Below, in pieces: positions 25,823 through 42,235 of a stretch of DNA of 64,000 bases. The stretch's first letter is position 1; every line of letters starts with the position of its first letter. The position numbers were made by a program, and so were the translations under genes. A model generated the notes under the pieces. The model was not told the origin of the DNA, made no database searches, and was given only the letters and a program-made list of their open reading frames with translations. Source of the DNA: Bradyrhizobium genosp. L (GTDB taxonomy: Bacteria > Pseudomonadota > Alphaproteobacteria > Rhizobiales > Xanthobacteraceae); the NCBI RefSeq assembly GCF_015624485.1, contig NZ_CP061378.1, positions 2,170,001-2,234,000 of the forward strand, read 5' to 3'.

Positions 25823-28800
25823 TCAGCGCGCGATATCCTGGCGGATACGGCCGACGGTTGCGGCAACATCGGTCCAGCCGGGCTTGTCGGGCGCGAATTG
25901 CCGCCGGAGGAACGAAACGAGCTCAGTGACCTGGCCATCGCTCATGCTGTCCTTGAACGCAGGCATATAGCCGAGATCGGTGACCGCGGGCCTGGCGATG
26001 CCGTGCAGGATCACCTGGATCAGATTGTCGGGGGCTTCGCTGTGCAGATTGCTGTTGAGCGCCAGCGACGGCCGGCTGCCGAACAGCGGCGGACCACCGA
26101 CCTCGTGGCACACCGCGCAGGCGCCCTGGTAGATCCGCGCACCCGCCGATGCGGCCGTGGTCGCGGCGGTCGCGGCTTCGAGCTTCCCGGCCAGAGCATC
26201 GTGGGCCGCCCGATCGTCGGCTTCGTTGAACGAGGCGAGATAGACCGCCATCGCGCGGATGTCCTGGTCGGGCAGGGCGGCGAGCTCGTTGACGACCGGC
26301 GCCATCGGCCCCGCGGCGACGCCGTGATAGCGGGACTCGCCCGTGCGCAAATAGGCGTAAAGCTCGTTCTCGCTCCAGGGGATCGGCGCCTTCGACAGCG
26401 AGGTCAGCGCCGGCGCCTCCCAGCCTTCGGCCAAGCCGCCGGCGAGATAGGCGCCCTGCCGTTCGGCGCCGAGCGCGTTGCGTGGCGAATGGCAGGCGCT
26501 GCAATGGCCGAGCCCTTCCACCAAATAGGCGCCGCGATTCCAGATCTCCGACCTCGAGGCATCAGGCTGGAATGGTCCAGGCTGATGGAACAGCGCATTC
26601 CATCCCGCCAGCAGCGGCCGCAGGTTGAACGGGAAGGCCAGCGTGTTCGGCGGCGTCTCTGCGTGTACCGGCGTCTGCGCCATCAGATAGGCGTAGAGCG
26701 CCTGCAGGTCGGCTTCGCTGGTCCGGGCGAAATGCGTGTAAGGAAATGCCGGGTAAAGATGGCGCCCATCGCGATGGATGCCCTCGCGCATCGCGCGCTC
26801 GAAGGCGGGATAGGACCACACGCCGATCCCGGTATCGATGTCGGGCGTGATGTTGGTGGTGTAGATCGTGCCGAACGGCGTTTCGAGCGGCCGGCCGCCG
26901 GCATTGACGACGCCATGCTCGGACGTGTGGCAGACCGCGCAGGCGCCGAGCGCCGCGAGCGCCCTGCCGCGGGCGATGGTGGCGGCCGAATAAACCGATG
27001 CATCCGGCCGTGCGATCGGCGCAATCGCGCGCCAGGGCAGGATCGCTGCGCCGACACCGATCGCGGCGGCGCACAGCGCGGCCAGGCCCGCGAGCATGCC
27101 GCCGCGCTTTACGAACGGATTGTGCCATCTATCACTTGGCACTGTTGGCGCAGGGGACGGAAGCGGCGTCGCCGGCTGCTCGCCGCGCAAACCCTTCAGG
27201 ATTCGCTCCGGCGTGAACGGCAATTCGCGGAAGCGCACGCCGGTCGCATCATAGATGGCGTTGGCGATCGCGGCCGCGCTCGGCACCGAGGCGGATTCGC
27301 CGACGCCGAGCGGCGGCTGGTCCTGCCGCGGCAGCATCAGGACGTCGATCTCCGGCAGGTCGGGGAATTGGATGATGGGATAGGCGCCCCATTCCCGCGC
27401 CGTCACCGCGCCGCGCTCGAACGAGACCTCCTCCATCAGCGCCCGGCTGGTCGACTGGATGACGTTGCCCTCGATCTGGTGCCGCACGCCCTCCGGATTG
27501 ATCATCAATCCGGAATCCTGCCCGGCGACGACGCGCGTCACGCTGACATCGCCGGTCGCCTTGTTCACCGCGACGTCGGCGATCCAGGCCGACCACGCCG
27601 CGCCATAACCGGGAAACTTGCTGTGGACGTAGAGCGCATAGGCAAAGCCGCGGCCGCGGACGATGTCGCCTTCGGCCTCCGGCTCCCGCCGCACGGGACG
27701 GGGACTCCAGCCGGCGCGCTCGGCGACCGCGTTGACGAGATCGATCGCACGCTTGTCTTTCAGATAGCGCAGCCGGTATTCGATCGGGTCGATCTCGGCC
27801 TCAGTGGCGAGCTCGTCGATGTAGGATTCGTGCGCAAAGGTGTTCGGCAGCGCCGACACGCCGCGAAACCAGGAGGCGCGCACGATCGGCGGCATGTCGT
27901 TGGCGACCACGCGCATGTTGTCGTAGTCATAGGGCGGGATCGCGGTGCGGTCGCCCATCTCGATTACGGCCGCTTCAGGTGAGATCCGCCCTGTGAGCAG
28001 CAGCGCCAGGGTCGGCGCGCCGTTCGAGGGATAGCGCGTGGAGAAGTCGTAAGCAGCGACGCTGCCGTCGGCGTTGAGCCCGCCATTGACGTCCATCAGC
28101 TGCGCGGTGCCCTTCGGCTCCCAGGCATGCTCCTGCTCGCGGGTGAGCTGGACGCGCACGGGGCGGCCGACCGCGCGCGACAGCAGCAGCGCATCGGCGC
28201 AGACGTCGTCGGCGCAGTTGCGGCCGTAGCAGCCGGCGGCCTCCATCCTGATGATGTCGATCTCGGTCTCCGGCCGTTCGATCAATAGCGCCAGATCGCC
28301 GCGCAAAATGTGCGGGTTCTGCGTGCCGGACCAGATGCGGATCGCGCCGTCGCTGTAATCGGCGACCGCGCAGGACGGGCCGACCGAGCCGTGCATCTGG
28401 TACGGCCAAACATAGGTCCGCTGCATCGGCTTGGCCGCCGCCGCGATCGCCGCATCGACATCGCCCTTGTCGATCAGTTGCCGCGGCGTCGACGGATTGG
28501 CGCGCAGCGCCCGCTCGATATCGCTGAGATCGGTCAACGCCGGCCCCGGCTTCCAGCTTAGCTTGAGCTGCGCCGCGGCCTTGATCGCGTTCTCCTCGCG
28601 TTCGGCCACGACGCCGACGAAATCGCCGATCCGCACCACCGCGACGAGACCCGGAATATCGCGCACCGAGGCTTCGTCCACGGCGAGCAGGCTGGTGCCG
28701 ACAAACGGGCCGGCATCGACGCCGGCATAGGGCGGACGGACCACACGGCCGTGCAGCATGCCGGGCACGCGAACATCGTGGACATAGACCAGCTCGCCAG

Positions 28801-29350
28801 TGGCCTTCGCCGGCAGGTCGATGCGCGGCTGGGATTTGCCGACGATCGCGTAGGCGTTCACCGCCTTGACCGGAACGTCGTCGGCAAGCTCGAGCCGGAT
28901 GGTCTCGTCTGCGATCAGCTCGCCATAGCTGACGCTGCGATTGTCATGGCCGCGGATCAGGCCGTCCTCGACCGTGAGATCGCCGACCGGCAGCTCCAGT
29001 CGTTCTGCCGCGCGCGCCACCAGAAAATGCCGCGCTTGCGCTGAGGCCTTGCGCAGCGGCACGGCGGTGACCTGGATGGTCTCGCTCGCGATCGTGGCGC
29101 CCTGGTTCGGCACCACGGCGGTGTCACCGAGGATCACGACGACGCGGGCAAAGGAGACGTCGAGTTCTTCGGCGACGATCTGCCCGAGCGCGGTGCGGAT
29201 GCCGGTGCCGAGATCGACATGGCCATTATAGGCATTGACCGCGCCGTCGGCGGTGATGGTGATGAAGGTCTCGAACGCGCCTTCCGCGCCGAGCACGGCG
29301 GGGCGGACGACCGACAGCGAGCCGCGCGGGCTTTGCTCCGAACCTGCCAT
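25823..29350 (-). CDS. nicB: Nicotinate dehydrogenase large subunit with triheme cytochrome c domain
   Basis: A 1175-residue fusion. Residues 1-740 are a molybdopterin-binding xanthine-dehydrogenase-type domain, with the catalytic Glu in the GVGESASVP motif. One membrane helix lies near 760-785 (GGMLAGLAALCAAAIGVGAA). The C-terminal part has three c-type heme motifs: CAVCH near 802, CSACH near 948 and CAVCH near 1076. This arrangement and length match NicB of Pseudomonas putida, which with NicA hydroxylates nicotinate to 6-hydroxynicotinate and passes electrons through hemes to the respiratory chain. The start shares one base with the nicA stop (TGATG). Other isoquinoline-type substrates are possible, but the neighbours support nicotinate. 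Confidence 0.88.
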   Translation of the reverse strand: MAGSEQSPRGSLSVVRPAVLGAEGAFETFITITADGAVNAYNGHVDLGTGIRTALGQIVAEELDVSFARVVVILGDTAVVPNQGATIASETIQVTAVPLRKASAQARHFLVARAAERLELPVGDLTVEDGLIRGHDNRSVSYGELIADETIRLELADDVPVKAVNAYAIVGKSQPRIDLPAKATGELVYVHDVRVPGMLHGRVVRPPYAGVDAGPFVGTSLLAVDEASVRDIPGLVAVVRIGDFVGVVAEREENAIKAAAQLKLSWKPGPALTDLSDIERALRANPSTPRQLIDKGDVDAAIAAAAKPMQRTYVWPYQMHGSVGPSCAVADYSDGAIRIWSGTQNPHILRGDLALLIERPETEIDIIRMEAAGCYGRNCADDVCADALLLSRAVGRPVRVQLTREQEHAWEPKGTAQLMDVNGGLNADGSVAAYDFSTRYPSNGAPTLALLLTGRISPEAAVIEMGDRTAIPPYDYDNMRVVANDMPPIVRASWFRGVSALPNTFAHESYIDELATEAEIDPIEYRLRYLKDKRAIDLVNAVAERAGWSPRPVRREPEAEGDIVRGRGFAYALYVHSKFPGYGAAWSAWIADVAVNKATGDVSVTRVVAGQDSGLMINPEGVRHQIEGNVIQSTSRALMEEVSFERGAVTAREWGAYPIIQFPDLPEIDVLMLPRQDQPPLGVGESASVPSAAAIANAIYDATGVRFRELPFTPERILKGLRGEQPATPLPSPAPTVPSDRWHNPFVKRGGMLAGLAALCAAAIGVGAAILPWRAIAPIARPDASVYSAATIARGRALAALGACAVCHTSEHGVVNAGGRPLETPFGTIYTTNITPDIDTGIGVWSYPAFERAMREGIHRDGRHLYPAFPYTHFARTSEADLQALYAYLMAQTPVHAETPPNTLAFPFNLRPLLAGWNALFHQPGPFQPDASRSEIWNRGAYLVEGLGHCSACHSPRNALGAERQGAYLAGGLAEGWEAPALTSLSKAPIPWSENELYAYLRTGESRYHGVAAGPMAPVVNELAALPDQDIRAMAVYLASFNEADDRAAHDALAGKLEAATAATTAASAGARIYQGACAVCHEVGGPPLFGSRPSLALNSNLHSEAPDNLIQVILHGIARPAVTDLGYMPAFKDSMSDGQVTELVSFLRRQFAPDKPGWTDVAATVGRIRQDIAR

Positions 29351-29817
29351 CAATCGCGCGCCTCGAGCGCGTGGCCGGCCGCGCGCATCGCCGCACGGAT
29401 GATTTCGATGTGCGCGCCGCAGCGACAGAGATTGTAGCGCAGCGCTTCCTTCACCTCGTGCTCGGACGGCGTTGGATTGCGCGTCAGCAGCGCCTTGGTG
29501 GTGATGATCATGCCGTTGAGGCAATAGCCGCATTGCGCGGCCTGCTCGCGGATGAAGGCGTCCTGCACCGGATCGGGATGCTCGCGGCTGCCGAGGCCTT
29601 CCAGCGTCACGATACTGCGGTTAGCGCAACCCTCGATCGGAACGACGCAGGAGCGCGCGGCGACGCCATCGATCAGCACGGCGCAAGCACCGCATTCGCC
29701 GAGCCCGCAGCCATATTTCGGTCCGTTCAATGCGAGATCGTTGCGCAGCACGTAAAGCAATGCGGTGTCGGGAGCGGCATCGACATCATGGTTCCTGCCG
29801 TTCACGGTCAGGCGCAT
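29350..29817 (-). CDS. nicA: Nicotinate dehydrogenase small 2Fe-2S subunit
   Basis: The ATG at 29817 has GAGGGAGAAC just upstream and gives a 155-residue protein, the usual length. Cysteines in YGCGLGECGACAVLIDG bind the plant-type [2Fe-2S] cluster, and CGYCLNGMI with LCRCGAH bind the second cluster. It carries electrons from the molybdenum centre in NicB. It is the first gene of the leftward operon nicA-nicB-pncB, and a palindromic operator sits in its likely promoter. Confidence 0.9.
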   Translation of the reverse strand: MRLTVNGRNHDVDAAPDTALLYVLRNDLALNGPKYGCGLGECGACAVLIDGVAARSCVVPIEGCANRSIVTLEGLGSREHPDPVQDAFIREQAAQCGYCLNGMIITTKALLTRNPTPSEHEVKEALRYNLCRCGAHIEIIRAAMRAAGHALEARD

Positions 29818-29872: not shown

Positions 29873-29900
29873 AGGATAACGTTTGTATACAAACGTGCAA
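29873..29900 (-). promoter_or_regulatory. nicA promoter with palindromic operator in the spacer
   Basis: On the minus strand TTGCAC (29900-29895) and TATCCT (29878-29873) are 16 bases apart. The perfect 18-bp palindrome ACGTTTGTATACAAACGT (29879-29896) fills that spacer. A protein bound there would block RNA polymerase, so repression of nicA-nicB is likely. The predicted start lies about 49 bases before the nicA ATG. Confidence 0.65.
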
Positions 29901-29984
29901 GCGGCGGCATGCCGCGCTGCAGCGCGTGCCCGCTTTATGAACAGGCTGCGCAAGCGAATGGCAGCTTTTGATTGCAAAGGCCGC

Positions 29985-30031
29985 TTGACAGGATTTGGGT
30001 CCGCGCGCAGGATCATTCGTATACGAACGAT
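29985..30031 (+). promoter_or_regulatory. hnr operon promoter with overlapping operator
   Basis: A perfect TTGACA (29985-29990) is followed after 17 bases by CAGGAT (30008-30013). The near-palindrome ATCATTCGTATACGAACGAT (30012-30031, one mismatched pair) covers the end of the -10 box and the expected start site. It has the same GTATAC core and flanks as the sites at nicA and at ena/fpr, so the same repressor probably binds. Confidence 0.65.
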
Positions 30032-30093
30032 ATGAGCGGGCGGCCGGATGCGCAGTATGATCGACCGCCGCCACAAGTCCAGGCTGGGTCACG

Positions 30094-31542
30094 ATGGCTG
30101 ACACTATGACCGTCGCCGCCGGCGACAAGATCCGCTGCGATGCCTGCCCGGTGATGTGCTACATCAAGCCGGGCGCCGCGGGCGCCTGCGACCGCTATGC
30201 CAATCATGACGGCACGCTGGTGCGGGTCGATCCGCACGTCGTGCTGGAGCGCACGGTGTCGCATGGCGGCAGACTGGTGCCGTTCCAGGCGAGCGGCGAT
30301 TGGGACGGCAAGCTCGTCCACCAGCCCGACATCTTCGTCACCGCGATCGGCGCGGGCACCACCTATCCGGACTACAAGCCGGCGCCCTTCATCGTGTCGT
30401 CGGAGGTCGACGGCGTCGACATGGTCACGGTGGTCACCGAGGGCATCTTCTCCTATTGCGGCGTCAAGGTGAAGATCGACACCGACCGCTATCTCGGCCC
30501 CGAAACGGCCGTGGTGCGCGCCGATGGTGAGGCGGTCGGCCACGTCACGACAAGCGAATACGGCTCGCAGATGCTCTCGCTCGGCGGCGTGCACCATCTG
30601 ACGGGCGGCTCGAAGAAGGAGGGCCGCGTCACCTGCGACACGCTGATGGATCTCTCCAACTGCAAGGCCGTGGAGCTTGTCATCGACGGCGGCGCCACCG
30701 TGGTGGTGCAGGCGGGCAGGGCGCCGATCGTCAACGGCGCAGCGGAAGAGCGGATGCGGGTCGGCTGCGGCTCGGCGACCATCGGCATGTTCGCCAAGCA
30801 GTGGCACGGCAAGGTCGACGAGGTCGTGGTGGTCGACGATCACATCACCGGCGTGCTGAGTGAGCACCAGGCCGGCAAGCTGCTCGATATCGCCGACACC
30901 GGCATCAAGATGAAGGGCCGGCGCTCGACACCCGGCCGCTATTTCCAGGTCGCGGAGCCCGGCACGGGCTGGGGCGGTACCAACATCTCGGACCCGCTGT
31001 CGATCCTCGGCCCCTTCAACGCGAAGGAGGCGCGCGCCGGGCTGACCATGTTGATGGTCTCAACCACGGGCGAGCATGCCTCCTATTACGTGCTCGACGA
31101 GGCGCTGCGGCCGGTCGAGACCGAGATGCCGGCGGACCTGAAATTCTCGGTCGAGCGCATCCAGGAGAATTGCGAGCCGGCGCTGTGCACCGTGCTGTTC
31201 ATGGGCGGCGCGGGCGGTTCGCTGCGCGCCGGCGTCACCGACAATCCGGTGCGGCTGACCCGCTCGGTGAAGGATGCGCTGACCCGGGTGACCTCTGGCG
31301 GCGCGCCGGTTTACGTCTGGCCTGGCGGCGGCATCACCTTCATGGTCGACGTGACGCAGATGCCGGCCGGCGCCTTCGGCTATGTGCCGACGCCGGCGCT
31401 GGTGGCGCCGATCGAGTTCACGATGCGGCTGTCGGACTACGCGGCGCTCGGCGGCCATATGGACTACGTCCGGCCGCTGTCCTCGCTGCGGGACAGCGCC
31501 GAGATCCGGCCGATGCCGTACATTCCCGGGCGGCGCGCATGA
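30094..31542 (+). CDS. hnr: 6-Hydroxynicotinate reductase
   Basis: The 482-residue protein resembles the 6-hydroxynicotinate reductase of Eubacterium barkeri, which uses reduced ferredoxin to form 1,4,5,6-tetrahydro-6-oxonicotinate. Cys15, Cys18, Cys22 and Cys32 in CDACPVMC...GACDRY look like ligands of an iron-sulfur cluster. The rest is a single domain with a glycine-rich GGAGGSLRAGVTDNPVRLTRS segment. It has no signal peptide and acts in the cytoplasm. Its stop overlaps the next start as ATGA. Enamidase and ferredoxin reductase genes nearby support the assignment, though I cannot test identity by search. Confidence 0.8.
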   Translation: MADTMTVAAGDKIRCDACPVMCYIKPGAAGACDRYANHDGTLVRVDPHVVLERTVSHGGRLVPFQASGDWDGKLVHQPDIFVTAIGAGTTYPDYKPAPFIVSSEVDGVDMVTVVTEGIFSYCGVKVKIDTDRYLGPETAVVRADGEAVGHVTTSEYGSQMLSLGGVHHLTGGSKKEGRVTCDTLMDLSNCKAVELVIDGGATVVVQAGRAPIVNGAAEERMRVGCGSATIGMFAKQWHGKVDEVVVVDDHITGVLSEHQAGKLLDIADTGIKMKGRRSTPGRYFQVAEPGTGWGGTNISDPLSILGPFNAKEARAGLTMLMVSTTGEHASYYVLDEALRPVETEMPADLKFSVERIQENCEPALCTVLFMGGAGGSLRAGVTDNPVRLTRSVKDALTRVTSGGAPVYVWPGGGITFMVDVTQMPAGAFGYVPTPALVAPIEFTMRLSDYAALGGHMDYVRPLSSLRDSAEIRPMPYIPGRRA

Positions 31543-32468
31543 GCCGGCTGCCGCAAATCGCGCTTCTTCCTGATGGCAAGCGGCTGCATTTGCAGGACGG
31601 TCCGATTGATCTGGTCATTGAAGCCACGGGCAGGGACGCAGATGTTCGTGCCGCCTACGAGGCCGCGGCGCAGCGCTTCACCGGCTTGCTCGATGATCTC
31701 TGTGCGGAGCTGCCGCTGTTGCGCAGCACGGCCGATCCACGGCACTGCGCGCTGAAGGGCGCGGTCGCGCGGCGCATGCATGCCGCGGTCGCGCCGTTTG
31801 CGGGCGATTGCTTCATCACGCCGATGGCCGCCGTCGCAGGTTCGGTGGCCGAGGAAATCCTGGGCGCGATGCTCAAGGCGGCAATGCTCGACCGCGCCTA
31901 TGTCAACAATGGCGGCGACATCGCGCTGTATCTCGCCGCCGGCGAACAGTTCAGCGTCGGCCTGATGGACCGGCCGGACCGTCATGGCGTGATGCGCACC
32001 ATAACCGTCGATGCCAACATGCCGGTGCGCGGCATCGCCACCAGCGGCCGCCACGGCCGCAGTTTTTCGCTCGGCATTGCCGATGCCGTCACCGTGCTGG
32101 CGCGCACCGCGTCGCAGGCCGATGCCGCCGCGACCGTCATCGCCAATGCCGTCGATCTGCCCGGCCATCCCGGCATCGTCCGGCTTCCGGCCAATGAATT
32201 GCAGCCGGACAGCGATCTCGGGGCGCGCCTGGTCACCCGCGATGTCGGTCCCCTGGCAGAACACGAGATCGAACAGGCGCTCGAGACCGGGGCGGCGCGG
32301 GCGCGCATGCTCCTGACGTCGGGATTGATCGAGGGCGCGGCATTGCGTCTACTGGGCGAAACGCGGTTGGTCGGTGCAACTGGGCACGAGGCGCCGGCAT
32401 CGCACGCGTTTCAAACAACAAGACTAGAAAAGCATGCCGCAGGCATGACCGGGAGCGAGGCCAGATGA
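31539..32468 (+). CDS. UPF0280 (ApbE-related) family protein
   Basis: A 309-residue protein of the UPF0280 group, related to ApbE FAD:protein FMN transferases. The family core is DCFITPMAAVAGSVAEEIL near residues 90-108 and AYVNNGGDIALYL near 123, the latter corresponding to the NGGD metal/FAD site of ApbE. No lipoprotein signal is present. It overlaps hnr and the next gene by ATGA, so it is translated with them. A role in attaching flavin to the reductase is an attractive inference but unproven. The last 50 residues are divergent. Confidence 0.75.
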   Translation: MSRLPQIALLPDGKRLHLQDGPIDLVIEATGRDADVRAAYEAAAQRFTGLLDDLCAELPLLRSTADPRHCALKGAVARRMHAAVAPFAGDCFITPMAAVAGSVAEEILGAMLKAAMLDRAYVNNGGDIALYLAAGEQFSVGLMDRPDRHGVMRTITVDANMPVRGIATSGRHGRSFSLGIADAVTVLARTASQADAAATVIANAVDLPGHPGIVRLPANELQPDSDLGARLVTRDVGPLAEHEIEQALETGAARARMLLTSGLIEGAALRLLGETRLVGATGHEAPASHAFQTTRLEKHAAGMTGSEAR

Positions 32469-33049
32469 GCGCCGTCATTCGCAAGATCGTCACCGTGGTC
32501 GAGGAAACCCATCTGGAGATGGGCAAGACCATCGCGCCGCCGACCCGGCGCGCCGCCGCGATCGCCGTGATCGAAAATCCCTTCGCCGGACGCTATGTCG
32601 AGGACCTCTCGCCGCTGATCGCGATCGGCGAGGAACTCGGCGAGTTGCTCTCCAGGCGGGCAGTCGCCGCGCTCGGCATCGACGGCGCCAGGGCGCAGAG
32701 CTACGGCAAGGCCGCCGTCGTTGGCGAAAATGGCGAGCTGGAGCACGCGGCCGCGATCTTGCATCCGAAGATGGGCGCGCCGGTGCGCAAAGTGCTGAGC
32801 AAGGGCGCGGCGCTGATCCCGTCGTCGAAGAAGCGCTCGGGTCCCGGCACCACGCTGGACATTCCGCTCGGCCACAAGGACGCGGCTTTCGTGCGCAGCC
32901 ATTTCGACGGCATGGAGGTGCAGATCAACGACGCGCCGCGCGCCAACGAAATCATGGTCGCGGTCGCGGTTACCGACAGCGGCCGGCCGTTGCCGCGGGT
33001 CGGTGGGCTGACGGTATCTGAGGTCAAGGGCGAAGACGGATTGCGATAA
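32465..33049 (+). CDS. AA_synth (DUF1185) family protein
   Basis: A 194-residue protein similar to the so-called amino acid synthesis family (PF06684), whose biochemical role is poorly known. Visible segments are KIVTVVEETHLEMGK at the start, NPFAGRYVEDLSPLIAIGEELG, YGKAAVVGENGELEHAAAILHPKMGAPVRKVL and the glycine/lysine region SSKKRSGPGTTLDIPLGHKDA. It is coupled by ATGA to the UPF0280 gene and precedes the transporter genes, so it probably serves nicotinate breakdown, perhaps ring-intermediate handling or cofactor assembly. Confidence 0.7.
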   Translation: MSAVIRKIVTVVEETHLEMGKTIAPPTRRAAAIAVIENPFAGRYVEDLSPLIAIGEELGELLSRRAVAALGIDGARAQSYGKAAVVGENGELEHAAAILHPKMGAPVRKVLSKGAALIPSSKKRSGPGTTLDIPLGHKDAAFVRSHFDGMEVQINDAPRANEIMVAVAVTDSGRPLPRVGGLTVSEVKGEDGLR

Positions 33050-33078
33050 TCTCTTTGAAGGCAAACTGGAGGTACGGG

Positions 33079-34296
33079 ATGCGTGGTTATTTCGTAGGGG
33101 TGGGATTGGCGATTGCGGTCGCGGGCATGGCCGGCAGCGCCATGACAAGACAGGCCTTGGCACAGAGCGGTGAGATCAAGATCGGCGAGATCAACTCTTA
33201 TTCGCTGCTGCCGGCATTCACCGAGCCCTACCGCAAGGGCTGGCAGCTCGCGGTGGAGGAGATCAATGCGGCCGGCGGCATCAACGGCAAGAAGCTCGTC
33301 GTCGTCTCCAAGGATGACGGCGGCAAGCCGGCGGACGCGCAGACCGCGGCGAACGAACTGGTCTCGAGCGAGAACGTCGCGATGCTCACGGGCACGTTCC
33401 TGTCCAACATCGGCCTCGCCGTCAGCGACTTCGCCAACCAGAAGAAGGTGTTCTTCCTCGCCGCCGAGCCTTTGACCGACGCCATCACCTGGTCGAAGGG
33501 TAACCGCTACACCTTCCGCCTGCGTCCCTCCAACTACATGCAGGCCGCGATGCTGGTGGAGGAGGCCGCAAAGCTTCCCGCAAAGCGCTGGGCGACGATC
33601 GCGCCGAACTATGAATACGGCCAGTCGGCGGTCGCGGTGTTCAAGAAGTTGATGTCGGAGAAGCGGCCCGACATCCAGTGGGTCGACGAGCAGTGGCCGC
33701 CGCAGGGCAAGATCGATGCGGGCCCGGTGGTGCAGGCGGTTGCCGCGGCCAACCCGGAAGCCATCCTGAACGTCGAGTTCGGCGCCGACCTGGTCAAACT
33801 CGTGCGCGAAGGCAACACGCGTGGTCTGTTCAAGGACCGCAAGGTGGTGAGCTTCCTCACGGGTGAGCCGGAATACCTCGATCCGCTGAAGGACGAGACG
33901 CCGGAGGGCTGGATCGTCACCGGCTATCCCTGGTACTCGATCAAGACGCCCGAGCACGAGACGTTCCTGAAGGCCTATCAAGCCAAGTACAACGACTATC
34001 CGCGGCTCGGCTCGATCGTCGGCTACGAGACCATCAAGTCGGCGGCCGCGATCCTCGCCAAGGCCAATTCGACCGATCCGGAAAAACTGATTGCGGCCGC
34101 CGAAGGCATTTCGGTGCCGTCGCCGTTCGGCGAGATCACCTTCCGCAAGATCGATCACCAGTCGACGCTGGGGGCCTTCGTCGGCAAGACCGCGCTGAAG
34201 GACGGCAAGGGCATCATGGTCGACACGTCCTATCGCAAGGGTTCGGACTATCTGCCCGGCGACGCCGAAGTCGAGAAGATGCGGCCGAAGGACTAA
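33079..34296 (+). CDS. LivJ-type substrate-binding protein, probable nicotinate uptake
   Basis: The ATG at 33079 has GGAGG seven bases upstream. The 405-residue product has a signal peptide ending near QALAQ and a type I binding-protein fold: IKIGEINSYSLLPAFTEPYRKGWQLAVEEINAAGG (seen in outline) and VGYETIKSAAAILAKA. It belongs to the branched-chain amino acid/aromatic acid class. Being within the hnr operon and ahead of matching permease and ATPase genes suggests that it binds nicotinate or a related pyridine acid. Confidence 0.85.
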   Translation: MRGYFVGVGLAIAVAGMAGSAMTRQALAQSGEIKIGEINSYSLLPAFTEPYRKGWQLAVEEINAAGGINGKKLVVVSKDDGGKPADAQTAANELVSSENVAMLTGTFLSNIGLAVSDFANQKKVFFLAAEPLTDAITWSKGNRYTFRLRPSNYMQAAMLVEEAAKLPAKRWATIAPNYEYGQSAVAVFKKLMSEKRPDIQWVDEQWPPQGKIDAGPVVQAVAAANPEAILNVEFGADLVKLVREGNTRGLFKDRKVVSFLTGEPEYLDPLKDETPEGWIVTGYPWYSIKTPEHETFLKAYQAKYNDYPRLGSIVGYETIKSAAAILAKANSTDPEKLIAAAEGISVPSPFGEITFRKIDHQSTLGAFVGKTALKDGKGIMVDTSYRKGSDYLPGDAEVEKMRPKD

Positions 34297-34301
34297 GAAC
34301 C

Positions 34302-34440
34302 TCCCCCTCTCCCCGTTCTTACGGGGAGAGGGTTGGGGTGAGGGGCGCTTTCCACGAGTTCAGCTTGTGGAGAGTCCCCCTCACCCGAATTCAAGCTGGC
34401 GCTTGAATTCGACCTCTCCCCGCAGGCGGGGCGAGGTGAA
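34302..34440. repeat. Intra-operon palindromes between binding-protein and permease genes
   Basis: CCTCTCCCCGTTCTTACGGGGAGAGG (seen at 34306-34331; arms CCTCTCCCCGT/ACGGGGAGAGG) forms a strong hairpin. Inverted GGGTGAGGGG/CCCCCTCACCC and CGAATTCAAG/CTTGAATTCG lie behind it. In this position it may stabilise the binding-protein mRNA and reduce read-through into the permease, giving the usual excess of binding protein. Confidence 0.75.
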
Positions 34441-34464
34441 CGACAACTCCAACGCGGACCGCCT

Positions 34465-36354
34465 ATGGCCTTCTACATCGTCCAGTTCCTGACCGGTCTT
34501 GCCAGCGCGGCGTCGCTGTTCCTGGTCGCGTCCGGCCTGTCGATCATCTTCGGCGTGACGCGGATCGTGAATTTCGCCCATGGCGCGTTCTATATGCTCG
34601 GCGCCTATGTCGCGTTCACGCTGACCGAGCGCCTCTCCGGGACGCTCGGCTTCTGGGGCGGAATCGTCGCCGCGGCCCTGATCGTCGCTGCGATCGGCGT
34701 GCTGGTCGAGATGGTGCTGCTGCGCCGGATCTATCATTCGCCGGAGCTGTTCCAACTGCTTGCGACGTTCGGCCTGACGCTGATGGTCGAGGATCTCGTG
34801 GTCCTGATCTGGGGCCCGGACGATCTGGTCGGCCGCCGCGCGCCGGGATTTAGGGGCGCGATCGATTTCTTCGGCCAGAACATTCCAAGCTACGACCTGC
34901 TTCTGATCGCACTCGGACCGGTCGTGCTCGGCGTTTTGTGGCTCTTGTTCCAGCGCACCCGCTGGGGCGTGCTGGTGCGCGCGGCGACGCAAGACCGTGA
35001 CATGGTCGCAGCGCTCGGCGTCAACCAGAAATGGCTGTTCACCAGCGTGTTCGCGCTCGGCGTCTTCCTTGCCGCGCTCGGCGGCGCGCTGCAGATCCCG
35101 CGCGATGCCGTCAATCATGCGATGGATCTGCGCGTCATCGTCGAGGTCTTCGTCGTGGTGGTGATCGGCGGCCTTGGCAGCATCATCGGCGCCTTCGTCG
35201 CGGCGGTGCTGGTGTCGGAGCTCAACGCGTTCGGCATCCTGATCTTCCCGAAGATCTCGATCATCCTGGTGTTCCTGGTGATGGCGGTGGTCTTGATCGT
35301 CCGTCCCTGGGGTCTGTTCGGCAAGCCGGAGGCGCCGGCGCGCCGCACGCCGGGCCTCACCGTCAATCCGTGGCGGCCGCTGACCTCGAACGAGCGGTTT
35401 GCGGCGCTCGCCGCGCTGATCGTCGCCGGCGCGCTGCCGTTGTTCGCCGGCAATTACGTCCTCACCGTCGGCTCGGAGATCGCAATCTTCGTGATCTTCG
35501 CGATCAGCCTGCATTTCCTGATGTCGGTCGGCGGGCTCGCCTCGTTCGGCCATGCCGCCTATTTCGGCCTCGGCACCTATGGCGTGGCGCTGCTCGCCAA
35601 GATGGCCGGCCTGCCGATGATCGCCTGCCTGCTGCTCGGCCCATTGTTGGGGTTGTTGGGGGCAGCCGTGTTCGGCTTCTTCGCGGTGCAGCTCTCCGGC
35701 GTCTATTTCGCGATGCTGACGTTGGCCTTCGCGCAGATCGTCTGGTCGATCGCGTTTCAGTGGGTCTCGGTGACCGGCGGCGACAACGGCATTCTGGGCG
35801 TCTGGCCGGAGAAATGGGCGGCGAGCCCGTCGCATTTCTACTGGCTCTCGCTTGGCGTTGCCGCGCTCGCGGTCGTAATCCTGCGCATCATCGTGTTCTC
35901 GCCGTTCGGTTTTGCGTTGCGCGCGACGCGCGACTCGCCGCTGCGCAGCGAAGCCATCGGCATCAACGGCAAGCGCATCCAGTGGACCGCCTTCGTGATC
36001 GCGGGCACCGTCGCCGGCCTCGCCGGCGCGCTGTTCGCCTATCTGAAGGGCAGCGTCTTCCCCGACAATATGGGCATCTCGCTGTCGGTCGATGCGCTGG
36101 TCATGGTGCTGCTCGGCGGGGTCGAGACGGTGTCGGGCGCGGTGGTCGGCGCCATCGTCTACAAGGCACTCAACATCTGGCTGGTCAGCCAGACCGACTG
36201 GTCGAAACTCGTGCTCGGTGCCTTCGTCGTGCTGATCGTGGTGGCATTCCCGAAGGGTATCGTCGGCACGATCGAAGCGTTGATGCATCGCCGCCGCAAA
36301 TCCGGATCGTCGTCGTCACCGCTGCTCACCTCCCGTGTCGAGACTGCCGAATGA
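34465..36354 (+). CDS. Fused LivH-LivM permease
   Basis: A 629-residue membrane protein joining both branched-chain-type permeases. The LivH half (about residues 1-285) has SGLSIIFGVTRIVNFAHGAFYMLGAY and the LivM half (about 305-600) has GGLASFGHAAYFGLGTYGVALLA and DSPLRSEAIGINGKRIQWTAF. About 16 hydrophobic segments are visible, with a short linker at RRTPGLTVNPWRPLT. Its stop overlaps the ATPase start as ATGA. Fusion is a known variant of this transporter class. Confidence 0.9.
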   Translation: MAFYIVQFLTGLASAASLFLVASGLSIIFGVTRIVNFAHGAFYMLGAYVAFTLTERLSGTLGFWGGIVAAALIVAAIGVLVEMVLLRRIYHSPELFQLLATFGLTLMVEDLVVLIWGPDDLVGRRAPGFRGAIDFFGQNIPSYDLLLIALGPVVLGVLWLLFQRTRWGVLVRAATQDRDMVAALGVNQKWLFTSVFALGVFLAALGGALQIPRDAVNHAMDLRVIVEVFVVVVIGGLGSIIGAFVAAVLVSELNAFGILIFPKISIILVFLVMAVVLIVRPWGLFGKPEAPARRTPGLTVNPWRPLTSNERFAALAALIVAGALPLFAGNYVLTVGSEIAIFVIFAISLHFLMSVGGLASFGHAAYFGLGTYGVALLAKMAGLPMIACLLLGPLLGLLGAAVFGFFAVQLSGVYFAMLTLAFAQIVWSIAFQWVSVTGGDNGILGVWPEKWAASPSHFYWLSLGVAALAVVILRIIVFSPFGFALRATRDSPLRSEAIGINGKRIQWTAFVIAGTVAGLAGALFAYLKGSVFPDNMGISLSVDALVMVLLGGVETVSGAVVGAIVYKALNIWLVSQTDWSKLVLGAFVVLIVVAFPKGIVGTIEALMHRRRKSGSSSSPLLTSRVETAE

Positions 36355-37142
36355 GCATGGTTCCCACATTGCTGTCGGTCGAGGGGCTGACCAAATCCTA
36401 TGGCGGCGTGCATGCCATGCGCGGCGTCTCGTTCGAGCTGCGCTCAGGCGAGATCCTGGCGCTGATCGGGCCGAACGGTGCGGGCAAGAGCACCTGCTTC
36501 AACGTGCTCAACGGCCAGATTGTGCCGGACTCCGGCCGTGTGCGCGTGCTGGGCGAGGACACCACCGGCAAGAAGCCGCGCGCGATCTGGCGTATGGGCG
36601 TCGGGCGCACCTTCCAGATCACGGCCACGTTCCCGACCATGACGGTGCGCGAGAACGTGCAAGTTGCGCTGGTCTCGCATGGTGGCCAGCTGTTCAACCT
36701 GTGGACCTCGACCGCGGCTTACGCGCGCGACGAGGCCGGACGACTGCTCGATCTGGTCGGCATGGGCGCCTATGCCGAGCGGCCCTGCGGCGAGCTCGCC
36801 TATGGCGACCTCAAGCGGCTCGAGCTTGCGATCGCGCTCGCCAACCAGCCGAAGCTGCTGCTGATGGACGAGCCGACCGCCGGCATGGCGCCGCGCGAGC
36901 GCGTCGAGCTGATGCGCCTGACGGCACGGATCGCCCGTGAGCAATCGATTGGCGTGCTCTTCACCGAGCACGACATGGACGTGGTGTTCGAGCATGCCGA
37001 CCGCATCCTGGTGCTCAACCGCGGCAGCCTGATCGCCGAGGGCTCGCCGGCCGAGGTTCGCGGCAATGCCGAGGTGCGCGCGATCTATCTCGGCGACGGC
37101 CTGCTCTATGACGCACGGCACCGCGAGGGAGCGCCGGCATGA
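36351..37142 (+). CDS. LivG-type ABC transporter ATPase
   Basis: The 263-residue ATPase has Walker A GPNGAGKST near residue 43, a LivG-type signature region GELAYGDLKRLELA, Walker B LLLMDEPTAGMAP and the switch His in FTEHDMDVVF. Starts at 36351 or 36357 are possible; the first gives the ATGA overlap seen throughout this operon. It energises the fused permease together with the next ATPase. Confidence 0.92.
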   Translation: MSMVPTLLSVEGLTKSYGGVHAMRGVSFELRSGEILALIGPNGAGKSTCFNVLNGQIVPDSGRVRVLGEDTTGKKPRAIWRMGVGRTFQITATFPTMTVRENVQVALVSHGGQLFNLWTSTAAYARDEAGRLLDLVGMGAYAERPCGELAYGDLKRLELAIALANQPKLLLMDEPTAGMAPRERVELMRLTARIAREQSIGVLFTEHDMDVVFEHADRILVLNRGSLIAEGSPAEVRGNAEVRAIYLGDGLLYDARHREGAPA

Positions 37143-37843
37143 AGCTCACGGTGAAGGACCTCAACAGCTTCTACGGCCCCGCGCATATCCTGTTCGACAT
37201 TGCCCTCGAAGTCGGTGAGGGCGAGGTGGTGGCGCTGCTCGGGCGCAATGGTGCCGGCAAGTCGACCACGTTCCGCTCGATCGTCGGCCTGGTCGAGAAC
37301 CGCTCCGGCCGCATCGTGTTCGAGGGCAGGGACGTCTCGCGCGAGCCGACACACGCGATCGTGCGCGGCGGCCTCGGCTATGTGCCGGAGGAGCGGCGTA
37401 TCTTCACCGACCTGACGGTCGAGGAAAATCTCGAGGTCGGCCGCCAGCCGAAACGATCAGGCGCGCCGCAATGGGACCGCGACAAACTGTTCAAGCTGTT
37501 CCCCAACCTCGGCGAGATGCGCGGACGGCCCGGCGGCCGCATGAGCGGCGGCGAGCAGCAGATGCTGACGATCGCGCGCACGCTGATGGGCAATCCGTCG
37601 CTGGTGCTGCTGGATGAACCCTCCGAGGGGCTGTCGCCAAAGATCGTCGAGCAGATGGTCGACGCGATCCTGAAAATGAAGAAGGAAGGCGTCTCTATCG
37701 TGGTCTCCGAGCAGAATTTGCATTTTGCCCGGCTGATCTCGGATCGCGCCTATATCATCGAGCGCGGCCGGATCTGCTTCGGCGGCACCATGGCCGAACT
37801 CGATGCGCGTCCGGACATCCGCGACGCGCATCTGTCGCTGTAG
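37139..37843 (+). CDS. LivF-type ABC transporter ATPase
   Basis: A 234-residue ATPase with Walker A GRNGAGKST, signature MSGGEQQMLTIARTLM and Walker B LVLLDEPSEGLSP, and the LivF-like C-terminus DARPDIRDAHLSL. It overlaps the LivG gene by ATGA and completes the transporter set of binding protein, fused permease and two ATPases. The MarR gene follows 14 bases later. Confidence 0.92.
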   Translation: MKLTVKDLNSFYGPAHILFDIALEVGEGEVVALLGRNGAGKSTTFRSIVGLVENRSGRIVFEGRDVSREPTHAIVRGGLGYVPEERRIFTDLTVEENLEVGRQPKRSGAPQWDRDKLFKLFPNLGEMRGRPGGRMSGGEQQMLTIARTLMGNPSLVLLDEPSEGLSPKIVEQMVDAILKMKKEGVSIVVSEQNLHFARLISDRAYIIERGRICFGGTMAELDARPDIRDAHLSL

Positions 37844-37857
37844 GGACGGACGGGACC

Positions 37858-38313
37858 ATGGCGAAGAGCGCGGTACAGAAGCGAAGCGCGAAGGCGGCGA
37901 AGCCGCTTTACGTGCTGGACGAGCAGATCGGTTTCATCCTGCGCCAGGTGTCGCAGCGCCACGCCGTGATCTTCGCCCGCGAGATCGGCATCAATCTGAC
38001 GCCGACGCAGTGGGCCGCGCTGTCGAAACTGTCCGAGGTCGGCCCATGCTCGCAGAACCAGCTGGGACGGCTGACCTCGATGGATGTCGCGACCATCAAG
38101 GGCGTGATCGACCGCCTCACCGCGCGCGGGCTGACGGAGACTGCACCCGATCCCGACGACGGCCGCCGGCTGATGGTGAGCCTGACGCGCGCCGGCGTGC
38201 AGATGGCCGAGAAAGCCGCGCCGAATGCGCTGACGATCTCGAAGGAAACGCTGGCCCCGCTCGACGCCAAGGAGCGCGAGACGCTGATGGCGCTGCTGGG
38301 CAGGTTGCGCTAG
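37858..38313 (+). CDS. MarR-family transcriptional regulator, probable repressor of the nicotinate genes
   Basis: The 151-residue protein has a winged helix with NQLGRLTSMDVATIKGVIDRL as the recognition region and the wing APDPDDGRRLMVSLT. It is the last gene of the hnr operon, so it would be autoregulated by the operator at 30012-30031. P. putida NicR, a MarR-type repressor of nic genes, is a functional precedent. The ligand might be nicotinate or 6-hydroxynicotinate. Binding to the GTATAC palindromes is an inference. Confidence 0.82.
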   Translation: MAKSAVQKRSAKAAKPLYVLDEQIGFILRQVSQRHAVIFAREIGINLTPTQWAALSKLSEVGPCSQNQLGRLTSMDVATIKGVIDRLTARGLTETAPDPDDGRRLMVSLTRAGVQMAEKAAPNALTISKETLAPLDAKERETLMALLGRLR

Positions 38314-38364
38314 CACAAATCCATCACCGTCGTCCTGAGCTACGAAAGTCGCCACACGCTCCAC

Positions 38365-38488
38365 CGTCGTCCCGGCGAAGGCCGGGACCCATACTCCGCA
38401 GCGGATGTAGTGGGCGGGACTCGTCGTTCCACCGGCGCGCAACAATGATCTTCGGTGGTTATGGGTCCCGGCCTTCGCCGGGACGACG
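38365..38488. repeat. Paired-arm palindromic repeat, copy 3 (inverted orientation)
   Basis: Perfect 28-base arms at 38365-38392 and 38461-38488. The inner sequence next to the right arm (GCGCAACAATGATCTTCGG) is the reverse complement of the left inner sequence of copies 2 and 4, so this copy lies the other way round and the other half of its centre has diverged. It is located between convergent marR and ena genes. Confidence 0.82.
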
Positions 38489-38520
38489 CTGAATGTTTGG
38501 TGCGGCTCGCCTTCCGCAAG

Positions 38521-39717
38521 CTACTTCGCCACGATCTCCGGCACCTTGCCCGCAGGCGGCGTATTGCGGCTGCGCTGGGTGCGGACGATGCCGTCGATGA
38601 TGGTCATGCCGATGCCGGGGAGGTCGCCGAGCTGCACGCTCTCCAGGATGTTCTTGCCCGGCGAGTGCTGCGCCTTGTCCATCAGCACGAAATCGGCGGA
38701 GCGGCCGACCTCGATCAGGCCGCAATCGAGCTCGCGCATCCGCGCGGTGTTGCCGGTGGCGAGGCAGAATGCGAGCTCCGCCGGCAGGTCGCCGAGCGAA
38801 GACAAGAGCGACACCATCCGCAAGATGCCGAGCGGCTGCACGCCGGAGCCGGCCGGGGCGTCGGTGCCGAGGATGACGCGATGCAGGTCGCCCATCTCGC
38901 GCGCGGTGCGCAAGGTGAACAGCGCGGAGCGCTCGTTGCCGTTGTGCACCAATTCCAGCCCGCGCTTGCAGCCCTCGCAGATGCAGCGGATCTGGTCGTC
39001 GGGTAGCGCCGTGTGACCGCCGTTGATGTGGCCGACCACGTCGGTGTCGGCTTCGAGCACCACGTCCTTGTCGATCAGGCCGGAGCCGGGGATGGAGGGC
39101 CCGCCGGTGTGGATCGTGCTCTGAATGCCGTATTTGCGCGCCCAGCCGACCATCTTGCGCGCCGTCGGGCCGTCCTTGACGCCGCCGAGCCCGACTTCGC
39201 CGAGCAGCTTGACGCCAGCCGCCGCCATTTCCTTGAAATCGTCCTCGACCATCTCGCATTCGATCACCGGCGCGCCGGCATGCACCTTCACGCCGCCGGG
39301 CCGCAGCGTCCAGAACGCCCGCTGCGCGAAGATCGCCATCGCCTTCAGCCCGACCACGTCGCGCGGTCGGCCGGGCATGTGCACCTCGCCGGCTGATATC
39401 ATGGTGGTGACGCCGCCGTGCAGATAGCTGTCGATCCAGTTGATCTGGTTCTGCCGCGGCGTCCAGTCGCCGGCGACGGGGTGGACGTGGCTGTCGATCA
39501 GGCCGGGCGCGACCGTGGTGCCGTTGGCGTCGACGATGGTCGTCGCGCCGTCGGTATTGACGTCCTTGAGGCGGCCGATCGCAGTGATCTTGCCGTTCTC
39601 GGCTGTGATGGTGTCGGCGTCCAGGATCGGCTTCTCCAGGGCCCCCGACAGCAACAGCCCGATATTGCGGATCACCAGCTTGCTGGGGCCGGTGGCCTGG
39701 GGCGCGTCATGAGCCAT
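38521..39717 (-). CDS. ena: Enamidase (6-oxo-1,4,5,6-tetrahydronicotinate amidohydrolase)
   Basis: The ATG at 39717 follows GGAAGGA and gives 398 residues. It is an amidohydrolase-superfamily enzyme with the metal motif DSHVHP (His77, His79), further ligands probably Glu in GEVGLGG, His in STIHTGG and GHINGGH, and the late Asp in GTDAPAGSG. It resembles the Eubacterium barkeri enamidase, which opens tetrahydro-oxonicotinate to 2-formylglutarate and ammonia, the step after the hnr reaction. The operator-bearing intergenic region separates it from the divergent ferredoxin reductase gene. Confidence 0.82.
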   Translation of the reverse strand: MAHDAPQATGPSKLVIRNIGLLLSGALEKPILDADTITAENGKITAIGRLKDVNTDGATTIVDANGTTVAPGLIDSHVHPVAGDWTPRQNQINWIDSYLHGGVTTMISAGEVHMPGRPRDVVGLKAMAIFAQRAFWTLRPGGVKVHAGAPVIECEMVEDDFKEMAAAGVKLLGEVGLGGVKDGPTARKMVGWARKYGIQSTIHTGGPSIPGSGLIDKDVVLEADTDVVGHINGGHTALPDDQIRCICEGCKRGLELVHNGNERSALFTLRTAREMGDLHRVILGTDAPAGSGVQPLGILRMVSLLSSLGDLPAELAFCLATGNTARMRELDCGLIEVGRSADFVLMDKAQHSPGKNILESVQLGDLPGIGMTIIDGIVRTQRSRNTPPAGKVPEIVAK

Positions 39718-39769
39718 GGGATGGTTTCCTTCCGATTCTGCCGAAATTGCCCGCGAATTTGAGCCCGCC

Positions 39770-39840
39770 TTGACTTTCCGATCAAGCCGGATTATTCGTT
39801 TGTATACGAATGATCGTATACAAACGATCCGGCCGGTCAA
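39770..39840. promoter_or_regulatory. Divergent ena/fpr promoters with double GTATAC operator
   Basis: A perfect inverted repeat of 14-base arms (TCGTTTGTATACGA at 39796-39809 and its complement at 39814-39827, spacer ATGA) contains two GTATAC cores. For fpr, TTGACT (39770-39775), 17 bases and TATTCG (39793-39798) form a possible promoter. For ena on the minus strand, TTGACC (39840-39835), 16 bases and TACGAT (39818-39813) do. Both -10 boxes overlap the repeat, as expected of a repressor site shared with nicA and hnr. Confidence 0.65.
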
Positions 39841-39887: not shown

Positions 39888-40661
39888 ATGAGCAATTTCA
39901 ACCAGGAAAGCGTCCTCAGCGTTCATCACTGGACCGACACGCTGTTCTCCTTCAAGACCACCCGCAATCCCTCGTTCCGCTTCCGCAATGGCGAGTTCAC
40001 CATGATCGGGCTCAAGGTCGGCGAGAAGCCGCTGCTGCGCGCCTACAGCGTCGCCAGCGCCAATTACGAGGACACGCTCGAATTCTTCTCGATCAAGGTT
40101 CCCGACGGCCCGCTGACCTCGCGCCTCCAGCATCTCAAGCAAGGCGACGAGATCATCGTCAGCCGCAAGGCCACCGGCACGCTCGTCATCGACAACCTCG
40201 AGGACGGCCGCAACCTCTATCTGGTCGGAACCGGCACCGGGCTCGCGCCGTTCCTCAGCGTGATCAAGGATCCCGAGACCTACGACCGCTTCGAGAAGGT
40301 CGTGCTGCTGCATGGCTGCCGCAAGGTGAGGGAGCTCGCCTATGGCGAGATGATCACCGAGACGCTGCCGAAGGACGAATTGATCGGCGACCTCGTGCGC
40401 GAGCAGCTGATCTATTACCCGACCGTGACCCGCGATCCTTTCCGCAACCGCGGCCGCATCACCGACCTCATCACATCGGGGAAGCTGTTCGCCGATATCG
40501 GCCTGCCGGCGCTCGACGCCGCGCATGACCGCGTCATGATCTGCGGCTCGCCGGCGCTGGTCGCCGACACCCGCACGCTGCTCAATGGCCGCGGTTTCGT
40601 CGAAGGTAACCACGGCGAGCCGGCGCAGTTCGTGGTCGAGAAGGCGTTCGCCGAGCGCTAG
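39888..40661 (+). CDS. fpr: Ferredoxin-NADP+ reductase
   Basis: The ATG at 39888 follows CAGGGA. The 257-residue flavoprotein has the FAD motif RAYSVASANYED near residue 52, NADP-binding GTGTGLAPF near 113, MICGSPALVADTR near 215 and ends EKAFAER as bacterial Fpr proteins do. It would deliver electrons from NADPH to ferredoxin. In this setting it probably feeds the ferredoxin-dependent hnr reductase. No ferredoxin gene lies next to it, so the carrier must be encoded elsewhere. Its stop overlaps the convergent soxA stop region. Confidence 0.9.
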   Translation: MSNFNQESVLSVHHWTDTLFSFKTTRNPSFRFRNGEFTMIGLKVGEKPLLRAYSVASANYEDTLEFFSIKVPDGPLTSRLQHLKQGDEIIVSRKATGTLVIDNLEDGRNLYLVGTGTGLAPFLSVIKDPETYDRFEKVVLLHGCRKVRELAYGEMITETLPKDELIGDLVREQLIYYPTVTRDPFRNRGRITDLITSGKLFADIGLPALDAAHDRVMICGSPALVADTRTLLNGRGFVEGNHGEPAQFVVEKAFAER

Positions 40662-41431
40662 GGCCTGACCGCCGGCGTCTCGATGGGCATGCCGCGCGCC
40701 CGTGTCATCAGATAGAGCTCCAGCTCGACCAGCTCCGGCGAGCCATAGTCGTATGGCTGCGCGCGGATGCCGGTGATGCAGGCGCGCAAGCGCCGCTGCA
40801 ACGATCCGAGCGATTGCCATTCCAGCCGGTAGAGCGGGTAGCCCGTCGGCTGTCCCTGCGTGATCGGGGAACCGGCGAGCTTCTTGTCCCAATTATCATC
40901 ATGGCAATTGGCGCAGGCGAGATTGAGCTGGCCTTGCCGCTGGGTGAACAGCTGATGCCCCTTCGCGATGAACGGCGTGAGCTCCGGATCGTCGCCGGTC
41001 TCGATCGGCATGCCCCGCGATTGCTCCGCGACATAGGCCGTCAGCGCCAATAGCTCGCGGCTCTCATAGGCAAATGGCGTCGCGTGCTGATGGTTGCTGC
41101 GGCAGAGGTTGATGCGGCCTTCGAGATCGAGCGGCTTGCCGAGCGTTTGCTCGAACGCCGGATAGTGCGCCGCGACGCCCTTCATGCCGGCGCGCGCGTC
41201 GCCATGGCAATCGGCGCAAGCCTTGTCCGCGGCGCCGGCCCTGCGTTTCCACAGCGCTTCGCCGTCGAGCACAAAGAGCATACCGGGATTGGCGGTATCC
41301 TCGTCCTGCATGGCCCTGCTGTCCGGGCCCATGAAGCTGGAACCGGAGCGGCGCTCGGCCTGCGGGATTTCAGTGGCAAGCGCCGCGCTTGCGACCGCCG
41401 TCAAAACCACGATGCAGCCGAAAAGCTTCAT
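40658..41431 (-). CDS. soxA: SoxA diheme cytochrome c
   Basis: A 257-residue exported protein (signal peptide residues 1-20, ending near ALATE). Two heme motifs are CADCH and CANCH, and Cys in LRRLRACITGIRAQ is the expected cysteine ligand at the SoxAX active site. With SoxX it joins thiosulfate to the SoxYZ carrier in the periplasm. Its ATG overlaps the soxZ stop as ATGA, and it is the last gene of the cluster. Confidence 0.88.
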   Translation of the reverse strand: MKLFGCIVVLTAVASAALATEIPQAERRSGSSFMGPDSRAMQDEDTANPGMLFVLDGEALWKRRAGAADKACADCHGDARAGMKGVAAHYPAFEQTLGKPLDLEGRINLCRSNHQHATPFAYESRELLALTAYVAEQSRGMPIETGDDPELTPFIAKGHQLFTQRQGQLNLACANCHDDNWDKKLAGSPITQGQPTGYPLYRLEWQSLGSLQRRLRACITGIRAQPYDYGSPELVELELYLMTRARGMPIETPAVRP

Positions 41432-41748
41432 TCGACCGTGATCGAAGCCTGTGCGGTCTCCGAAAATCCCTTGTCGCCGATCCATTCGAACTCGAACTTG
41501 CCGCTCTCCGTCACCGTCGTGAAGAAGGTGATGAACGGGTTGGCCGCAATCGCCGGATAGAGATCGGCGCGAAAGATCTCCGCGCCTTTGAAGCGGCAGC
41601 TAAAGCTCGTGATGATGTCGCGCGGCACCACGTCGCCGGAGGCGGTGTGGCGATAGCCGGTCTCCATGATGTGCGACATCAGCGTCTTGATCTCGATGAT
41701 GTCGCCGCGTTTGGCCTTCGCCGGCACGTTGATCAGGGCCGACGGCAT
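41428..41748 (-). CDS. soxZ: SoxZ thiosulfate-carrier subunit
   Basis: A 106-residue beta-sandwich protein of normal length, with the SoxZ pattern VPAKAKRGDIIEIKTLMSH, MVETGYR-like HIMETGYRHTASGDVVPRDII and the end FSETAQASITVE. It has no signal of its own and is carried out bound to SoxY. Start shares one base with soxY stop and stop overlaps soxA start. Confidence 0.92.
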   Translation of the reverse strand: MPSALINVPAKAKRGDIIEIKTLMSHIMETGYRHTASGDVVPRDIITSFSCRFKGAEIFRADLYPAIAANPFITFFTTVTESGKFEFEWIGDKGFSETAQASITVE

Positions 41749-42227: not shown

Positions 42228-42235
42228 GTCTTATC

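Follow-up and report, generated by a model that had tools for sequence, protein, structure and literature searches.

BpsR of Bordetella (PDB 6pco and 6pcp) is a MarR-type repressor of nic genes that is released by 6-hydroxynicotinate (6HNA). According to the available part of PMC6837509, BpsR contacts this ligand through Tyr15, His23, Arg26 and His32, and these four residues are strictly conserved in the BpsR orthologue group. The same text states that NicR of Pseudomonas putida, a further MarR-type repressor of nic genes which can be likened to our case by description, lacks the 6HNA residues of BpsR, and NicR has also been treated in Burkholderia (PMC10269826, available part). In addition, a conserved nicotinate cluster has been described in Bradyrhizobiaceae strain SG-6C and Azorhizobium caulinodans (PMC3511419); in the accessible text of that paper 'MarR' and 'operon' are absent and 'regulator' occurs once, at another locus. 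Here we analyse a stretch of 64,000 nucleotides from Bradyrhizobium genosp. L (contig NZ_CP061378.1, positions 2,170,001 to 2,234,000; the window), in which three palindromic sites with GTATAC cores precede the nicotinate genes nicA, hnr, ena and fpr. Very probably these palindromes are operators of the MarR protein whose gene closes the hnr operon, and this protein would repress nicA, the operon from hnr to marR, ena and fpr until a metabolite of the pathway releases it from the DNA.

The sharing of the site among these promoter regions is confirmed. The initial annotation had reported a perfect 18 bp palindrome at 29879-29896, a second palindrome at 30012-30031 and a third at 39796-39827, and the coordinates and symmetry of all three were reproduced in the window sequence (Table 1). 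The third consists of two perfect 14-base arms with 4 bases between them, equivalent to two overlapping sites whose GTATAC cores lie 14 bp apart. From site end to gene the distance is 61 bp for nicA, 62 bp for hnr, 78 bp for ena and 60 bp for fpr. The consensus of the palindromes is TCRTTYGTATACRAAYGA as an 18-mer, CRTTYGTATACRAAYG as a 16-mer and TTYGTATACRAA as a 12-mer core. With up to two mismatches, the core has five matches in the window, against a mean of 1.02 in 100 shuffles (standard deviation 0.98, largest 4). Across the whole 7.40 Mb genome the 16-mer, again with up to two mismatches, occurs at nine places and its reversed control at three. All three exact matches lie at the nicA, hnr and ena/fpr promoter regions, which agrees with the earlier claim that the motif marks the starts of the pathway; one two-mismatch place is the second ena-fpr copy (39811-39826), and the remaining five (L005-L009) are in other parts of the genome. 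In three of these (L005, L007 and L008) the weak site falls within a long open frame, no pathway gene was recognised beside any of the five by eye from N-termini, and they were left as chance matches.

Conservation was followed in relatives of the locus found with Hnr. The search confirmed 398 relatives, and the best 80 of these, nearly all Bradyrhizobium, were used. Of the 80 loci, 79 allowed measurement of the nicA-hnr region; every one of the 79 carries both cores with at most one mismatch of 12, and 77 carry the two sites with at most three mismatches of 18. The ena-fpr region was measured in the 35 loci with ena and fpr adjacent (in the other 45 a gene is missing, apart or cut off), and at least one site with no more than two mismatches of 18 is present in all 35. 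The pair with exact 14-bp spacing is kept in 34 of them, the second site being allowed up to four mismatches of 18. Alignments were built from 79 rows for nicA-hnr (the window with 78 loci, after removal of regions at least 400 bases long) and 36 rows for ena-fpr (the window and 35 loci). In the former, mean identity to the commonest base is 0.94 over operator 1, 0.92 over operator 2 and 0.67 over the rest. Between the two divergent sites, a segment at 29927-29944 (TGCCCGCTTTATGAACAG) is also well conserved in the Bradyrhizobium-type loci and matches no element that can be named.

The association also extends beyond these close relatives. Co-occurrence was assessed in 397 genomes of the order, counting as a MarR homologue any match with E up to 1e-25 (orthology was not checked one by one) and as a site the 18-mer with at most one mismatch. 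Hnr is present in 91 genomes, a MarR homologue in 99 and the site in 63; the site occurs in 59 of the 91 Hnr genomes versus 4 of the 306 without Hnr, and a MarR homologue in 86 of the 91. The reversed control pattern was found in seven of the 397 genomes, none of them with Hnr. Similarly, 79 distant hnr loci hold 55 matches to the 18-mer at up to two mismatches, compared with a mean of 0.07 (maximum 3) for 200 permuted palindromes. In these distant loci a site lies within 250 bp of fpr in 11 of 20 cases, and genes that are usually internal to an operon have none at that distance, namely upf0280 (0/72), aas (0/61), the permease (0/38), the two ATPases (0/47 and 0/44) and the nicA large subunit (0/8).

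Furthermore, the site is found with pathway genes that have moved away from hnr. Among 31 regions around sites outside hnr loci, picked among the matches listed (at least nine further sites of family f20 were left out), 15 have a pathway homologue (fpr, ena, nicA or the substrate-binding protein) whose start is no more than 260 bp from the site, as judged by the Basic Local Alignment Search Tool (BLAST). In genome G050 (L286) a site precedes fpr, with marR adjoining, more than 1 Mb from hnr, and in L280 a ferredoxin gene stands opposite ena. A site directly precedes marR itself in L143 and L147, which belong to one genus, and in L149. Eleven further loci were inspected, and in five of them the site stands before a molybdenum-enzyme subunit of the flavin adenine dinucleotide (FAD) type, assigned by Pfam for L153, L177 and L204 and by 51-55% identity to these or each other for L169 and L176; the nicA of the window has no counterpart of this subunit. 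Of the 31 regions, 16 have no such homologue close by; three of these 16, L287, L289 and L292 from genomes of one genus, have a site 28-29 bp before an ADP-ribosylglycohydrolase gene, the gene being confirmed by Pfam for L289 and L292. In addition, TCATTTGTACACAAATGA lies 32 bp before the same gene in L296 and L297, both from genomes without Hnr, and in L296 this gene is a citrate synthase by Pfam.

The initial annotation had named the MarR gene at the end of the hnr operon as the best candidate for the regulator, and this choice is supported by the co-occurrence of MarR with Hnr and the site, the sites that follow rearranged genes, the sites before marR and a link between recognition helix and operator. 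The protein has a MarR winged-helix domain (PF01047, 41.3 bits against a cut-off of 24.6). MarR was found in 61 of the 80 fetched hnr loci and in 57 of the 71 that are at least 18 kb long, and the position of its gene within the cluster is shuffled. Of the fetched loci, three lie outside the class (L210, L211 and L213), and in them neither MarR nor a site was seen within 20 kb. In seven of the 13 genomes with MarR and without Hnr, MarR adjoins nicotinate-type genes: nicA-like genes (G116, G300, G349), the transporter operon (G077, G236 and G183, where the contig ends at this locus) or aas with an ena-like gene (G072). With regard to the recognition helix, the GTATAC 18-mer (up to one mismatch) is found in 21 of the 40 distant loci with Lys81 in their MarR, compared with 1 of the 19 with another residue there (Fisher 0.0004). 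This count leaves out 21 loci that lack an aligned MarR, four of which have such a site. Because 18 of the 19 proteins without Lys81 form one clade in the tree, the link amounts in effect to one evolutionary change, and it is only suggestive that recognition-helix class and operator class go together.

The likely ligand was approached through solved structures, the nearest to the window protein being 2nnn_A (161 bits) and BpsR (6pcp and 6pco, 78 and 77 bits). Over the first helix the alignment with BpsR is free of gaps and places Tyr18, Phe26, Arg29 and His35 opposite the four ligand residues, three of which (Tyr, Arg and His) align. All four of these residues are present in the window protein and in all 73 aligned Bradyrhizobium-type copies; Tyr and Arg are kept in all 132 aligned cluster copies, and at position 35 all 73 Bradyrhizobium-type copies have His, as do 37 of the 59 distant ones, the others having Ala (18/59) or Asn (4/59). 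With three of the four ligand residues of BpsR matched, the inducer is probably 6-hydroxynicotinate. The sequences themselves show the sites, how well they are conserved, that they co-occur with Hnr and MarR and that they stand at further pathway promoters where genes are rearranged; binding by MarR, repression and the ligand we infer. The MarR dimer would lie on the promoter elements of nicA, the hnr operon, ena and fpr, or in the space between them, and keep these genes low while no nicotinate is used; a metabolite, most likely 6-hydroxynicotinate, would then bind between the two subunits, open the dimer and free the DNA. As marR closes the hnr operon, operator 2 would also autoregulate marR and the circuit would limit itself.

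Several findings weigh against this assignment and need to be set beside it. The co-occurrence counts ignore relatedness, and 32 of the 91 Hnr genomes have no site at up to one mismatch, 27 of them with MarR. Among the distant loci, 41 of 79 have a site at up to two mismatches and 38 do not, and for most pathway genes a site within 250 bp is seen only in a minority: hnr 10/79, ena 3/15, the nicA small subunit 2/36, the substrate-binding protein 2/25 and marR 3/59. No pathway homologue is close by in 16 of the 31 regions with sites outside hnr loci, where the unrelated genes beside some of the sites (citrate synthase, glycosyltransferase) may reflect chance. None of the seven MarR loci that lack Hnr and adjoin nicotinate-type genes has a site next to those genes. 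Moreover, His23 of BpsR is replaced by Phe26 in the window MarR, and BpsR falls outside this MarR branch. The same sites could be read by another regulator. In favour of another, unlinked transcription factor, with MarR a passenger in the operon, are the 27 genomes that have Hnr and MarR and no near-exact site, the MarR loci without Hnr, a near-exact site in four hnr loci whose fetched stretch lacks MarR, and the existence of a MarR paralogue elsewhere in the same genome (46% identity, C1:1081797). However, the recognition helix of this paralogue differs and its 16 kb stretch holds no operator site. Also against an unlinked factor are the presence of MarR in 86 of the 91 Hnr genomes, with its gene shuffled in position within the cluster, the three loci in which a site immediately precedes marR, the site ahead of fpr-marR in G050, the agreement of recognition-helix and operator classes, and the lack of both MarR and site in L210, L211 and L213, and we regard it as improbable.

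How the sites lie relative to promoter elements bears on the two remaining alternatives. The initial annotation had each site overlapping a plausible -35/-10 pair. This is borne out only in part: the sigma-70 consensus scan found one pair in the ena-fpr region, on the ena strand (TTGACC at 39840, TACGAT ending at 39813), and none in the nicA-hnr region. Conserved boxes were nevertheless seen by eye in the alignments at the other genes: TTGAC at 29985 ahead of the hnr site, TTGAC at 39770 ahead of the fpr site, and, in the 79-row alignment, TATCCT abutting the nicA palindrome, so that on the minus strand this palindrome takes up the interval from a weak TTGCAC to the TATCCT. A TTGACA box lies upstream of the hnr site, and the hnr -10 is unclear. 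As the consensus scan found almost nothing, statements on promoters rest on conservation, and an overlap of sites and promoters is likely, but not proven. That MarR activates, or that the inducer is nicotinate or a later intermediate in place of 6-hydroxynicotinate, is rather unlikely, even though only three of the four BpsR residues are kept, the His35 position is Ala or Asn in part of the group and the hnr site stands below a TTGACA box with no clear -10. Against this reading, the putative hexamers of nicA have the palindrome between them, and the -10 predicted for ena is overlapped by the ena site, positions that are typical of repression. Also against it is the release of BpsR by 6HNA (PMC6837509, available part). 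Finally, it is scarcely credible that the palindromes arose by chance or are merely promoter boxes conserved for RNA polymerase. They do lie on or beside likely -10 regions, and GTATAC resembles a -10 box, but they are symmetrical over 16-18 bp, their three exact genome matches are all here, and distant loci (55 against 0.07 expected) and remote pathway genes have them too, so that the genome scan, the distant-locus count and the conservation in alignments largely exclude this explanation. A terminator or RNA hairpin was rejected too, with no terminator-like matches in the nicA-hnr or ena-fpr region.

Table 1. Genes and predicted operators of the nicotinate locus, in window coordinates
Feature	Position	Strand	Basis or description
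nicA large subunit, molybdopterin and cytochrome c domains	25823-29365	-	MoCoBD_1, MoCoBD_2, Cytochrom_C, Cytochrome_CBB3
nicA small subunit, [2Fe-2S] protein of molybdenum hydroxylase	29368-29817	-	Fer2, Fer2_2; ATG at 29817
Operator 1, predicted (nicA promoter)	29879-29896		ACGTTTGTATACAAACGT, perfect 18-bp palindrome
Operator 2, predicted (hnr promoter)	30012-30031		ATCATTCGTATACGAACGAT, one arm position mismatched
hnr, 6-hydroxynicotinate reductase-like	30094-31542	+	Name from the initial annotation and the cluster in PMC3511419 (available part)
UPF0280-type protein, hnr operon	31539-32468	+	NCBIfam NF003322 (PRK04334), 427.6 bits, cut-off 290
AA_synth protein, hnr operon	32465-33049	+	PF06684
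ATP-binding cassette (ABC) transporter	33055-37843	+	Substrate-binding protein 33055-34296, permease 34465-36354, ATPases ending at 37142 and 37843
marR, proposed repressor, last gene of hnr operon	37858-38313	+	MarR PF01047
ena, amidohydrolase (enamidase-like)	38521-39717	-	Amidohydro_1, Amidohydro_3
Operator 3A, predicted (between divergent ena and fpr)	39796-39813		Exact match to TCRTTYGTATACRAAYGA
Operator 3B, predicted	39810-39827		14 bp away from 3A and weaker; 16-mer with 2 mismatches
fpr, ferredoxin-NADP reductase-like	39888-40661	+	NAD_binding_1; NCBIfam best NF008178 (ferredoxin--NADP(+) reductase), below its cut-off

The assignments of the pathway genes differ in their basis. To the extent that protein families show it, the genes are those of the initial annotation, with a [2Fe-2S]/molybdopterin/cytochrome c hydroxylase, an amidohydrolase, a ferredoxin-NADP reductase-like protein, an ABC transporter and a MarR protein. 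Hnr matched no family among the Pfam and NCBIfam models, and the name enamidase for ena is that of the initial annotation. In the transporter, the substrate-binding protein was recognised by NCBIfam below cut-offs and the permease and ATPases by eye. The model NF003322 (PRK04334) stands for UPF0280-type proteins. The protein assigned to it is also weakly like ApbE (PF02424, below cut-off), and as ApbE proteins attach flavin, it might serve Hnr. Directly after nicA and on the same strand lies a gene for nicotinate phosphoribosyltransferase (24457-25761, minus strand), an enzyme of nicotinamide adenine dinucleotide (NAD) salvage that competes for the same substrate; the window motif scan found no operator site there. 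Right after fpr, on the opposite strand, 40658-44138 (minus) encodes a SoxA-type cytochrome, and further open frames there look like sulfur oxidation genes by eye.

A wider picture can be put forward tentatively, its parts taken jointly falling somewhat short of probable. In much of the alphaproteobacteria, one MarR lineage may be the standing regulator for nicotinate, and its operator may have stayed with the pathway where genes were rearranged or unlinked and where a non-orthologous FAD-type dehydrogenase took the place of the first enzyme. Recognition helix and operator core may have changed together in a side branch, and in some genomes the regulon may reach ADP-ribosylglycohydrolase. The last point, if true, would link the breakdown of nicotinate with the turnover of NAD or ADP-ribose. 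For the reductive nicotinate pathway (Hnr/Ena) of Bradyrhizobium and relatives, the analysis names a specific operator and a specific regulator that can be tested, and the motif could be used for finding missing pathway members. Similarly, the helix-operator link offers a natural set for the study of changes in repressor specificity.

Compared with known systems, the window protein shares with BpsR the MarR fold, the control of nicotinate breakdown (predicted for the window protein) and the aligned Tyr15, Arg26 and His32. It differs in having Phe26 in place of His23 and in the pathway, which is Hnr/Ena here and nicC/nicE with BpsR; the comparison covers protein residues, tree and pathway. Orthology with BpsR was rejected, as the four-residue set is incomplete and the tree splits BpsR and a BpsR-like copy (L317) from its other 90 rows with high support (100/99). 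PDB 2nnn, a probable transcriptional regulator with no function given, falls inside this MarR group in a 46-row branch (95/90) and, unlike the window MarR, has Tyr at the His35 position. NadQ, a regulator of NAD synthesis, was set aside for its different gene set (PMC5343134, available part). No regulator named for the reductive nicotinate pathway was found among open papers in the matches listed, and a literature search with the motif letters gave no title on nicotinate among the matches listed. The proposed regulator and operator are new and their kind, a MarR-type catabolic repressor regulon, is known: here too there is a winged-helix MarR protein, palindromic predicted operators lie in the target promoters, and the regulator gene is linked to its targets under the same predicted operator, in the hnr operon as in L143, L147 and L149.

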